DNA of 64,000 nucleotides, from the NCBI RefSeq assembly GCF_000016065.1, contig NC_009092.1, positions 3,782,001-3,846,000 of the forward strand. Direction: 5' to 3'. The notes beneath the pieces are model-generated. The model worked only from the letters and a program-made list of their open reading frames with translations, did not search any database and was not told the origin of the DNA. This document shows, piece after piece, positions 7,743 through 49,728 of the stretch. Position numbers and translations under genes: made by a program. Numbering within the stretch: position 1 is the stretch's first letter; every line of letters starts with the position of its first letter. This stretch comes from Shewanella loihica PV-4. Lineage in GTDB: Bacteria > Pseudomonadota > Gammaproteobacteria > Enterobacterales > Shewanellaceae.

Positions 7743-8219
7743 TGAAGGTCGAACCTTCATGGCTGTCTATCATCTGCGGTGGGCTTAGGTGCAAACACGT
7801 TTTTGGCACGGTGTGCACCTTTGACTTGCATCGATGCTAGAGAGGCTGTTGAAGGTCTTACCTTCATCGCCATCTAACGCCTGCCCGGCGGGTGCAGTAC
7901 ATGGAAGTACCAATGTCGTGATCACATGGTCGGTGATGCTCCCTGCATCAGGCCGACATTCTCCATATCCCTATGGGTCAGATATGAAAGAACGACGTAT
8001 GTGCAGATACGCCTGTGACACGCTGTACGCCATCTGACCTCCAAGGATGGAGGAAATGCCAAAATATGTAGGGAACATATTTGGCCCTGGCCGCTCTGCG
8101 AAATCATCTGACCTACATGGATGTAGGGAATGCCGAAAAATGTCAGGAACATTTTCGGCCCTGAAACAGAAGCTCACCGGCGTATCTACACTCGGTATCC
8201 AACGCCTCTTCGATTTGGC
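7743..8219. repeat. Palindromic repeat family, copy A (expanded)
   Basis: Member of a repeat family seen seven times in the window. It opens with a truncated unit (TTGAAGGTCGAACCTTCATGG, then GTGCAAACACGTTTTTGGC) and continues from 7851 with another TGAAGGT...ACCTTCA hairpin and TCTAACGCCTGCCCGGCGGG, ending CGCCTCTTCGATTTGGC. Its interior carries two tandem hairpin-rich units of about 59 bases. Short open frames here are products of the repeat. The 718-base gap before the DUF4823 gene holds nothing else recognisable. Confidence 0.75.
8031..8163. repeat. Two tandem units of about 59 bases inside copy A
   Basis: Units at 8031-8089 and 8105-8163 both begin CATCTGACCT and end GGCCCTG. Each holds two hairpins: a short one (CCTCCA/TGGAGG in the first, CCTACAT/ATGTAGG in the second) and a longer one ending in GCCAAAATATGT/ACATATTTGGC or GCCGAAAAATGT/ACATTTTCGGC. 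The stems differ in sequence but pair within each unit, so compensatory changes preserve the structure. Confidence 0.75.
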
Positions 8220-8353
8220 TTTACTGGTATCTATGAGCTCTTTGTCTTTGTTTCTTGATGAGGTATTTGTTAGTGATGCAGTTCATGGACTCAGGCATGG
8301 AATAAAGCTAGGCTAATTTGGCGATTAATGGGTTAATTGAATAAGGCTCTGCG

Positions 8354-8929: not shown

Positions 8930-9094
8930 TTGAAGGTCATGCCTTCATGGCAATCTATCACCTGCGGTGGGCTTATGTGCAAACACGTTTTTGGCACGCT
9001 GTGAATATATCCCTATACGCTTCACGGCGGCGTCCATGCCGCCGAGAGCCAAAAACGTGTTTACACTCGGTATCTAACGTCTCTTCGATTTGGC
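8930..9094. repeat. Palindromic repeat family, copy B
   Basis: A complete unit of about 165 bases: TTGAAGGTCATGCCTTCATGG at the left, CACGTTTTTGGC pairing with GCCAAAAACGTG around an inner GGCGGCGTCCATGCCGCC hairpin, and TATCTAACGTCTCTTCGATTTGGC at the right. It lies after the DUF4823 gene. Confidence 0.8.
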
Positions 9095-9346
9095 GGTATT
9101 TCATGTGGAAACGGATCAAAAATCTAACTTAGTTTTGCCCCATAACGAATTTCACACTAAGCCGTCCTTCGAATTCCCTCGATCCTTGTTAAGCAAATTT
9201 TAGTAATAATACTGAGTGCCCATTGAACAAAGTCCATTCCATCTCTTATATGTATGGCAATCGTATTTTTCCAAAGTTATAAAATATGAATACCTTTTCT
9301 TTGGAAGAGTAATATCATTTTGTCCCGATAATATCTATAAGTGTCC

Positions 9347-46274: not shown

Positions 46275-46344
46275 TTGCCTGGCGGCAATAGGGGCACGAT
46301 TATTTACGGTAGGCGGCATTGTGACTTACTTGGTCAGTTTCAGT

Positions 46345-46625
46345 TCATACCTTCATGGCAATCTAACGCCTGCCCGGCGAGGGATGTGTGACAACACCTC
46401 AAGGACTAATGTTCGCTATTTAGATTGGTATCACTGAGCGTCGCTATCATTGGCTTAGTAGATTTGAAGGTCGCACCTTCGCTGTTACCTAACGCCTGCC
46501 CGGCGGGGGTTGTGCAAGCACTCTTTTGGCACGCCGAGGTTCCGTCCCTGGAGGCTTCACGGCGGCGTCCATGCCGCCGAGAGCCAAAAGTGTGCTTACA
46601 CCTGTATCTAACGTCTCTTCGATTT
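46345..46625. repeat. Palindromic repeat family, copy C (double)
   Basis: A partial unit (ACCTTCATGGCAATCTAACGCC) and a spacer are followed by a full unit at 46463-46625: TTGAAGGTCGCACCTTC, TGTGCAAGCACTCTTTTGGC pairing with GCCAAAAGTGTGCTTACA around GGCGGCGTCCATGCCGCC, ending TATCTAACGTCTCTTCGATT. From 46383 on it is nearly identical to copy D, which is 1.97 kb downstream in the same direction. Confidence 0.85.
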
Positions 46626-46725
46626 AACTTCATCTGTTGCTGTCTTTGCTTGGGTATTTAACCCGGTTGATTTTTCCCGCTTCGCACCCATTTAAATTGA
46701 GACAGTGAATTGATAGGTTAGGCAA

Positions 46726-48226: not shown

Positions 48227-48300
48227 ATTTGAAGTAAAAGGGTGGCCCCCTTTATTTGCTTTAATCGAATTTGGCTGCATTTTAATTTATTGAAAGTATT

Positions 48301-48597
48301 TGAGGGTCGTACCTTCGCTGCAATCTGTCGCTGTCGCCTGCCCGGCGGGGGATGTGTGACAACACCTCAAGGGTTAGTATTCGCTATTTAGATTGGTATC
48401 ACTGAGCGTCGCTATCATTGGCTTAGTGGATTTGAAGGTCGCACCTTCATGGCAATCTAACGCCTGCCCGGCGGGGGTTGTGCAAGCACTCTTTTGGCAC
48501 GCCGAGGTTCCGTCCCTGGAGGCTTCACGGCGGCGTCCATGCCGCCGAGAGCCAAAAGTGTGCTTACACTCGTATCTAACGTCTCTTCGATTTGGCC
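48301..48597. repeat. Palindromic repeat family, copy D (double)
   Basis: Same layout as copy C; from 48351 to 48594 it matches 46383-46625 almost base for base. The full unit is at about 48431-48597 and ends TCTAACGTCTCTTCGATTTGGC. C and D form direct repeats around the GST/kinase segment. From 48598 to 48877 there is no gene; a CAAGGTAGCGTACCTTG near-palindrome is at 48841-48857. Confidence 0.85.
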
Positions 48598-48878
48598 TCA
48601 TTGAGTGCCATTGAGACAAGTTATTCTTTTTAAGAAAAAACGTACAAACATGTGACAGAACTTGTTGATTGCTACCTAACCAATAGCTAATGTGTAACCA
48701 ATCAAGGACAGAGCTAGGCCTACTCGACTCAAACATCGACCACGCCATTCAGGGAAGGAAAAGTCAACCACCATGCACCAACCGACGCCCTAAAAAGTTT
48801 ACTCTGCCCCCATTTATTTCATGCTTGGTGCCCTACTTTACAAGGTAGCGTACCTTGCAAGGTCTCACGAATAAATTG

Positions 48879-49225
48879 TTATATGCTTTTGGTGCTTATA
48901 AAGAAATGGAAAATTCTAATATCTCAGAACATTGGTTTATTAATGCAATTTCGCTTTCAGTTGCATTGGGTATTACTCAGAGCATTTTCTGGTCGCTAGG
49001 CATAGATATTGAAGTCGGTTTTACTTTTGATTATTTGATTTCTTTTGTTGGTAAAGTTGCTTTAATTTCGGTGTTTTATTACCTTTTTCTAAAGTTGTTT
49101 AGTTGGCTTTATTCGTAGTCTTAAGTCACGCATCTAACAAGCGCTTCAACAGGACAAAACACTGGTTGGCTCCTACGCTGCGCTCCGGATTATAGCCAAC
49201 CAGTATTTACCCATTAAGGCAGGCG
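48879..49225 (+). mobile_element. Single integron gene cassette
   Basis: The left junction reads AAATTG^TTATATGC at 48878-48885 and the right attC core GCG^TTATCC at 49224-49231, so a cassette would be TTATAT... to ...GGCG, 347 bases, with one small AT-rich gene and an attC site. No integrase or further attC site was seen. The cassette is therefore a lone insertion, probably into a secondary GTT target, or a remnant of a larger array. Confidence 0.7.
48906..49118 (+). CDS. Cassette-encoded small membrane protein
   Basis: A 70-residue protein with two hydrophobic helices (about 10-30 and 40-62; ISLSVALGITQSIFWSLG and YLISFVGKVALISVFYYLF) and an AT-rich coding sequence unlike the neighbouring genes. 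The frame opens at 48855, but the ATG at 48906 (MENSNISEHW) is inside the cassette boundary and is preferred. The stop is 14 bases before the attC site, the usual compact cassette layout. I do not recognise a family. Confidence 0.6.
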   Translation: MENSNISEHWFINAISLSVALGITQSIFWSLGIDIEVGFTFDYLISFVGKVALISVFYYLFLKLFSWLYS

Positions 49226-49231
49226 TTATCC
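49132..49231 (+). other. Integron attC recombination site
   Basis: About 100 bases with the attC pattern: outer cores ATCTAAC (49132-49138) and GTTATCC (49225-49231); next to them AAGCGCTT and the right-hand AAGGCAGGC; and a long imperfect palindrome ACTGGTTGGC / GCCAACCAGT around the loop. The TAACAAGCGCTTCAA...GGCAGGCGTTA form resembles attC sites of chromosomal integrons in Vibrio and Shewanella. Confidence 0.85.
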
Positions 49232-49336
49232 CACAGAAATTTTGATTCGATAGCCAAATTTGAGAGCGGTTAACCTAACGGGCCTGTGTTCATAACAAGC
49301 TAGCTTTGACAGGATGATAACTGCCAAATGCAGCTC

Positions 49337-49475
49337 AATCGAAGAGATTGATAACTTGGTGTAGGTACGGCTGTGACCTTCCGTGACAGGGATGTCACGG
49401 TAGAGCCTACAGGGAGTGTACTTGCGGCGTGTCACAGCAGTACCTGCACGAAAAGCCTGCTGCCAAGCAATTCAA
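49337..49475. repeat. Palindromic repeat family, copy E1 (inverted, diverged)
   Basis: Begins AATCGAAGAGATTGATAACTTGGTGTA and ends GCCTGCTGCCAAGCAATTC. The inner hairpin CGTGACAGGGATGTCACG replaces the GGCGGC...GCCGCC hairpin of other copies, while the ends are kept. Confidence 0.65.
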
Positions 49476-49572
49476 AACAATGAAGCATTGGTCTTCAGCA
49501 GGCAAGATTCAATTCCAAAAGGCCTTGGCCTACCAACCTCACCTCAAATACTTAGCGTACCCAAACACAGCT

Positions 49573-49728
49573 AAATCGAAGAGATGGATAACTCAGTGTA
49601 TGCGCGCTTTTGGCCCTCGGCGGCATGGATGCTGCCGTGGAGCGTATAGGGACATATCCACAGCGCGCCAAAAGAGTGCATGCACACTCCCCGCCGGACA
49701 GGCGATTGATAAACCATGAAGCTATGGT
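49573..49728. repeat. Palindromic repeat family, copy E2 (inverted)
   Basis: Begins AAATCGAAGAGATGGATAAC, has CGCGCTTTTGGC pairing with GCCAAAAGAGTGC, an inner GGCGGCATGGATGCTGCC hairpin, and ends CCCGCCGGACAGGCGATTGATAA then CCATGAAGCTATGG. Same orientation as copy F and E1. Confidence 0.75.

Follow-up and report, generated by a model that had tools for sequence, protein, structure and literature searches.

A cassette and its attC behind an attI-like repeat

The window, by which we mean the whole stretch of 64,000 nucleotides of Shewanella loihica PV-4 that was analyzed, contains an integron gene cassette surrounded by repeats (Table 1). The cassette ORF is preceded by GTTATAT at 48878, as read from the letters of the window, and followed by an attC site. 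Thus, all parts of the lone cassette described in the initial annotation (this heptamer, the 70-codon ORF, and the attC anatomy) are present. A Pfam search with the cassette protein (E 0.01) gives no match, and besides itself the protein has one relative, 64% identical, from a Pseudoalteromonas sp. MAG.

Table 1. Coordinates of the cassette unit and adjoining repeats in the window.
Feature	Position	Strand	Remarks
Palindromic repeat array left of unit	48298..48600	-	Repeat comparison; membership in unit not implied
Tail module of attI unit (left part)	48600..48811	+	Dispersed repeat, seven genome copies
Hairpin-type attI-like site	48812..48882	+	Core CGAATAAATTGTTA 48868-48881; crossover expected G48878^T48879; repeat homology
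Cassette gene	48906..49118	+	70 codons, AT-rich; ATG 48906, stop 49116-49118; encodes hydrophobic stretches
attC site	49134..49229	+	R'' CTAAC ... R' GTTAT; leave-out covariance model and conserved pairing
Right-hand module start TTATCCCACAGAAATTTTGATTCGA	49226..49250	+	Follows last attC at several units
Palindromic repeats right of unit	49325..49720	+	Inverted relative to left copies; membership in unit not implied

The attC site is recovered by a covariance model built without it. This leave-out model comprises 15 other attC sites, excluding the window's own and its near-twin at locus L113, and yields a single match in the 64 kb at up to E 10 (49134-49229, plus strand; 37.3 bits, E 9e-7). 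The claim that the window holds no second attC is thereby upheld at the sensitivity of this model. A consensus of 17 sites, including the window's, displays canonical R and L boxes and nine pairs, with compensatory changes in four. For the bottom-strand fold, another check proposed for the site, the energy is not exceptional (z -1.1; 29 of 200 shuffles equally good), and consequently the site is identified as attC by its sequence and its conserved pairing. An Rfam gathering scan of the window returns no match. With an attC and no neighboring integrase, the cassette is of the CALIN/SALIN kind.

The initial annotation found no attI in the window. This does not hold, as an attI-type site that is repeated at other loci directly precedes the cassette. 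The ~65 nt before the cassette are repeated at dispersed loci, and they terminate in a match to the attI cores adjoining Shewanella intI genes, core and spacing being the same as in attI sites beside intI. When scored with a matrix derived exclusively from sites next to intI, the window site reaches 11.4 bits, the top score in the window; since 140 of 200 random windows reach 11.4 somewhere, this match was dropped as proof for the single site, and the attI identification rests on homology and position. Compared with the window's hairpin, 29 of 30 other copies are ~78-89% alike over 65 nt and one is 64% alike (matches minus gap costs). Beyond GTT, only 2 of the 465 pairs among the 31 copies are alike, i.e., the sequences part at GTT. 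One of these two pairs is orthologous, and the other (L106/L111, in G040/G044) probably is, the G044 contig being broken there. Within the window genome, each of the four hairpin copies precedes a different gene.

Together with 8 more diverged copies, these 31 make 39 hairpin loci, 32 of which have more than 1.5 kb of downstream sequence; an attC lies downstream on the same strand in 28 of these 32, while 4 show none. Around the hairpin loci, 46 of 51 attC matches are downstream on the same strand, 1 is on the opposite strand, and 4 are upstream, three of the latter at L097, which has several such sites. With the 17 model seeds excluded, the bias persists (31 of 34). First cassettes common to different attI sites amount, in one comparison, to no more than one orthologous pair and two pairs whose common sequence is putatively an insertion sequence. 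The identification of the window site as an attI copy is well supported. The first cassette starts at the G^TT of an IntI core, as expected of an attI, whereas the site does not adjoin intI; as no intI in the genome exceeds the family cut-off, we file the site as an attI-like satellite rather than as a standard attI.

Further repeated modules adjoin this core unit. About 280 bp upstream of the cassette recur in the genome, and the tail module is followed in four of its seven copies by a hairpin ending at GTT. Among the three copies without hairpin, that at 2540484 instead precedes a diverged third-type attI, and no attI is seen at 2651780 and 2656178. The tail module contains the motif ACTCTGACCCC (L019, L020, L021; window 48600-48811), short pieces bearing which are scattered across many Shewanella; similar motifs are known near REP-associated transposases. 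On the other side, the right-hand module of the window is 85% identical over 27 nt to that at locus 4020381, and its beginning, GTTAnCCCATAGAAATTTTTATC, is common to several loci, 3' of the last attC. Nine matches to the right-hand-module pattern, in 8 of 129 Shewanella genomes, had been candidates for empty satellites and were rejected, as each follows an attC-like 3' end, judged by eye, that is joined to the module; the pattern search of the 129 genomes for empty satellite attI sites finds none.

Long palindromic repeats, one end of which carries AAATCGAAGAGACGTTAGATAC, occur in the window at 46336-46640, 48298-48600, and 49325-49720, and near 8169-8228 and 9056-9100, and the family adjoins many attI loci in this genome and its relatives. 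The inverted arms flanking the unit (48455-48570 and 49595-49710) are 81% identical. Three units were compared with shuffled sequence for the terminal inverted repeats that a MITE-like mobile element would have; the end scores were equaled in 31, 12, and 0 of 500 shuffles, and in the last two units the best end alignments are the flanking palindromic repeat. Terminal inverted repeats of the units are weak and suggestive only.

Cassette loci across the genome and in other taxa

The cassette is not unique. The window genome (4,602,594 bp, one contig) harbors at least 21 attC cassette loci (11 GCGC, 4 hairpin, and 6 third type), and each of those found begins at an attI-like repeat, of which there are three families; two loci are assigned by eye only. 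An attC search at up to E 1, in which the best 150 of 830 candidates were scored so that counts are minima, gives at least 39 matches at at least 17 loci. Eight of 13 further attC loci carry a canonical attI of 20.8-29.7 bits at their 5' end, on the cassette strand. Three of the remaining five have in common a ~370-bp repeat ending in GGCATTCTCGCTAATAAGCGTTA, the third type, and two show diverged versions seen by eye. A search with the 147-bp attI region adds three near-full copies, each with attC downstream, at 1513724 (35.5 and 28.4 bits), 678373 (23.2 bits), and 3246230 (a weak 15.5 bits); no attC is found at the partial GCGC copy at 4567977. At each locus, one or several cassettes follow the site, oriented alike. 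Among themselves, the GCGC satellites show 92-100% identity (88-100% for the six best copies over 147 bp), and they closely resemble the intI-adjacent attI of the relatives G074 and G044.

An independent check on the association of attI, attC, and module is provided by locus 1186604, which was located by its right-hand module alone and is absent from the earlier attC list. Here, an attC of 28.8 bits precedes the module, and a third-type attI (84% over 138 bp) lies 1.9 kb upstream on the same strand.

Copies of the hairpin are also present in further genomes of Shewanella. The 147-bp attI region has matches in 73 of 129 Shewanella genomes, at least 42 of which have two or more (best six candidates per genome scored). 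In a public genome collection, a 19-nt core pattern was examined at 80 loci among the matches listed, 35 from Shewanella and 45 from other taxa. Twenty-eight of the listed Shewanella loci have 1 kb of downstream sequence, and 23 of these show an attC; of the attC matches, 49 are downstream on the same strand, none opposite, and 1 upstream. An intI lies near 3 of the 35, a count from which absence is not proven for each locus, as some sequences end close to attI. Among the listed loci outside Shewanella, an attC is found at 19 of 32 (59 matches on the same strand, none opposite, 2 upstream), and an intI-like match is near 4 of 45, some sequences again ending near attI; two of these matches are fragments and one has only 28% identity. 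Among the matches listed, Pseudoalteromonas sp. T1lg75 and Oceanobacter kriegii have several core loci each. Core matches without attC in unrelated taxa (Nostoc, Chitinophaga, and similar) are probably chance. The presence of hairpin-type attI sites in Pseudoalteromonas and Thalassotalea (L293, L355, L304) suggests that they may have moved between genera. A Pseudoalteromonas is likewise the source of the protein most closely related to that of the window cassette.

Turnover at fixed places, integrase genes, and relics

Comparison with related genomes reveals exchange of content at the place of the window unit. In G040, the neighbors are 92-99% identical and the same tail and attI (88%) are followed by a gene of 479 codons and a different cassette, whose attC scores 31.7 bits. 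G058 has the same right-hand neighbors (70-80% identity), upstream of which lie a GCGC-type attI (25.1 bits), a different small gene, an attC (30.3 bits), and a right-hand module. The orthologous locus of G056 consists of a partly deleted attI and then other genes, with no attC match; in G009 the tail is reduced to 66 bp; no part of the unit is found at this place in G074 (best core 10.2 bits, other strand); and the G019 contig ends there. Fixation of the same sequence between conserved flanks, which the initial annotation had named as evidence against its reading, is not what the relatives display: the cassette differs in G040, and in G058 both the attI type and the cassette do.

A further difference concerns the satellite at 4020381. 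Its G040 copy has 854 bp extra, exactly at G^TTA, comprising two genes with attC-like ends, and the flanks are 98.9% and 96.7% identical between the genomes. For recombination of the site with attC under IntI, this insertion between sister genomes would be indirect evidence at most. A full intI match is found neither in the window genome nor in G040; consequently, the 854-bp event would date from an integrase-bearing time or have used an integrase from elsewhere, and present integrase activity in this genome appears unlikely. Insertion-sequence-like sequences, putatively IS110-like and IS91-like, occur exactly at the GTT of relatives' attI sites (L066, L068, L070, L216, L078, L200).

The window genome has no intI over the family cut-off and thus lacks the functional intI gene of a complete integron. 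Genome-wide, six integrase-family matches fall in four genes, the best with 80 bits where the cut-off is 265. All 14 control genomes likewise give matches in this search, so that the six represent generic tyrosine recombinases. All of them lie outside the window, in line with the original statement that it contains no intI. In contrast to this genome, intI over the NCBI family cut-off is present in 77 of 129 Shewanella genomes, and an intact intI beside the same attI occurs in relatives, e.g., G044. The activity of the S. oneidensis integron integrase is named in the title of a paper that PMC2426708 cites. Upstream of intI, 25 of 30 inspected loci show the core CTA-N6-(T)GTTA or a close form. 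The five without core include one locus that is presumably a class 1 integron judging by attI1, two disrupted at GTT, and two at contig ends.

The satellites could be the products of independent decay, each locus having once been a full integron that lost its intI, with remains that never worked in trans. One relic platform is present: locus 3742909 (L181, GCGC) retains 366 bp that are 93-95% identical to the platforms of relatives and include part of intI (residues 1-59, 52%). In addition, the GCGC satellites have a common left end that in relatives lies beyond intI, several keeping a LexA-box-like CTG-N10-CAG. However, three loci have the same intI-less interior, 0.96 alike over the 95 nt left of the LexA-like box, whereas other satellite interiors are 0.40-0.53 alike (one pair 0.71), which favors copying of intI-less forms, at least for those three. 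Moreover, the hairpin type is never seen beside a full intI in the Shewanella searches in which the positions of both were compared, and decay would require that a single genome once held no fewer than 21 separate full integrons, belonging to three kinds. We therefore consider independent decay of all loci unlikely.

Explanations of the unit and known systems

The cassette had originally been read as an insertion at a secondary G^TT site or as the last remnant of an array. This reading survives in part: a single cassette without adjacent integrase did enter at GTT in a plastic region, but the place of entry is no chance site and belongs to a family of dispersed attI-like repeats. The same distinction bears on attG sites, reportedly (Loot et al. 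2024) non-classical genomic insertion sites with a short consensus. Insertion at a site with such a consensus only would account for a single cassette at GTT, distant from intI. However, an attG is unrelated to attI and attC, whereas the window site belongs to an attI-like repeat family; the repeat is conserved over at least 65 nt with an attI core, another family is conserved over 147 bp, and a sister genome has different cassettes at the same site. We judge attG insertion very improbable.

Slightly less credible still is the proposal that the hairpin serves in regulation, as a leader or terminator that was copied before genes, with an incidental GTT boundary. The hairpin is palindromic and stands directly before start codons. 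Yet a promoter scan of the unit yields no sigma-70-like promoter (shuffles averaged 1.6), promoter and terminator scans are empty (a weak test), copies that precede unrelated genes nevertheless have their boundary at GTT, and the attC sites are biased in orientation. An additional regulatory role may exist. Finally, although the hairpin is an imperfect palindrome ending in GTT, its interpretation as the attC end of an upstream non-coding cassette is made the least probable of all by the absence of any attC model match there, alongside the lack of a conserved AAC box on the far side and an unremarkable fold (z -0.5).

Most probably, an integron integrase placed the cassette at what we term a satellite attI, a copied attI-like site far from any intI. 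In the proposed sequence of events, attI-like sites would have been copied to many chromosomal places away from intI; an integrase encoded elsewhere, decayed here and present in relatives, would act on them in trans, which we infer; and it would place attC cassettes at the satellite G^TT, all in the same orientation. Several observations speak for satellites: their repeated nature, a core in common with intI-adjacent attI, the sharp GTT boundary, the downstream attC, and the different cassettes at the same place in relatives together with the clean 854-bp insertion at G^TTA. Loading by an integrase in trans would be the simplest reading. More tentatively, and with slightly less than even confidence, we suggest a distributed integron, in which short non-coding mobile attI platforms, common to Shewanella, Pseudoalteromonas, and Thalassotalea, spread landing sites that one integrase in trans loads, so that capture would not be tied to one array beside intI.

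Scattered orphan cassettes are common and have so far been ascribed to decay or to secondary sites hit by chance. Should copied attI sites be where they lie, a single integrase would serve many loci, cassettes could be placed in many local contexts, and intI-less genomes would keep docks ready for an incoming integrase. The core patterns make the satellite idea testable in existing genomes.

For Shewanella, the sections consulted of PMC9229058 report numerous attC sites in distal positions as well as CALINs, and they count 115 orphan cassettes that stand singly, in 41 genomes. As in these CALIN/SALIN loci, attC cassettes are scattered here over genomes with and without intI, and the window cassette is one of them. 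However, no attI is described at such loci in those sections, whereas each locus found here begins at an attI-like repeat. The scattered cassettes are thus already published, and the scattered attI is the new element relative to that account; the open-licence papers searched contain no report of it. A possible reason lies in detection: attI outside class 1 is poorly described and IntegronFinder does not detect such sites, according to the relevant passage of PMC9024848, which would explain why satellites were missed. Compared with the chromosomal intI-attI platform of Shewanella, satellites have the same attI core but lack intI and occur in many copies per genome.

Cassettes at attG sites are likewise inserted away from the integron; attG sites, however, diverge in sequence from classical att sites (excerpt of PMC12901181), whereas satellites are attI-like repeats. 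In Xanthomonas, an excerpt of PMC12444791 states, CALIN positions are conserved, unlike attG. In mobile integrons, truncated attI sequences (delta-attI) form the ends of cassettes, as set out in part of PMC12901181, and like satellites they place attI sequence away from the integrase end. However, a delta-attI, as portrayed there, ends a cassette within an array, while a satellite attI starts a separate chromosomal array. The cassette of the window is itself of a familiar kind; what is new is the kind of place at which it sits.
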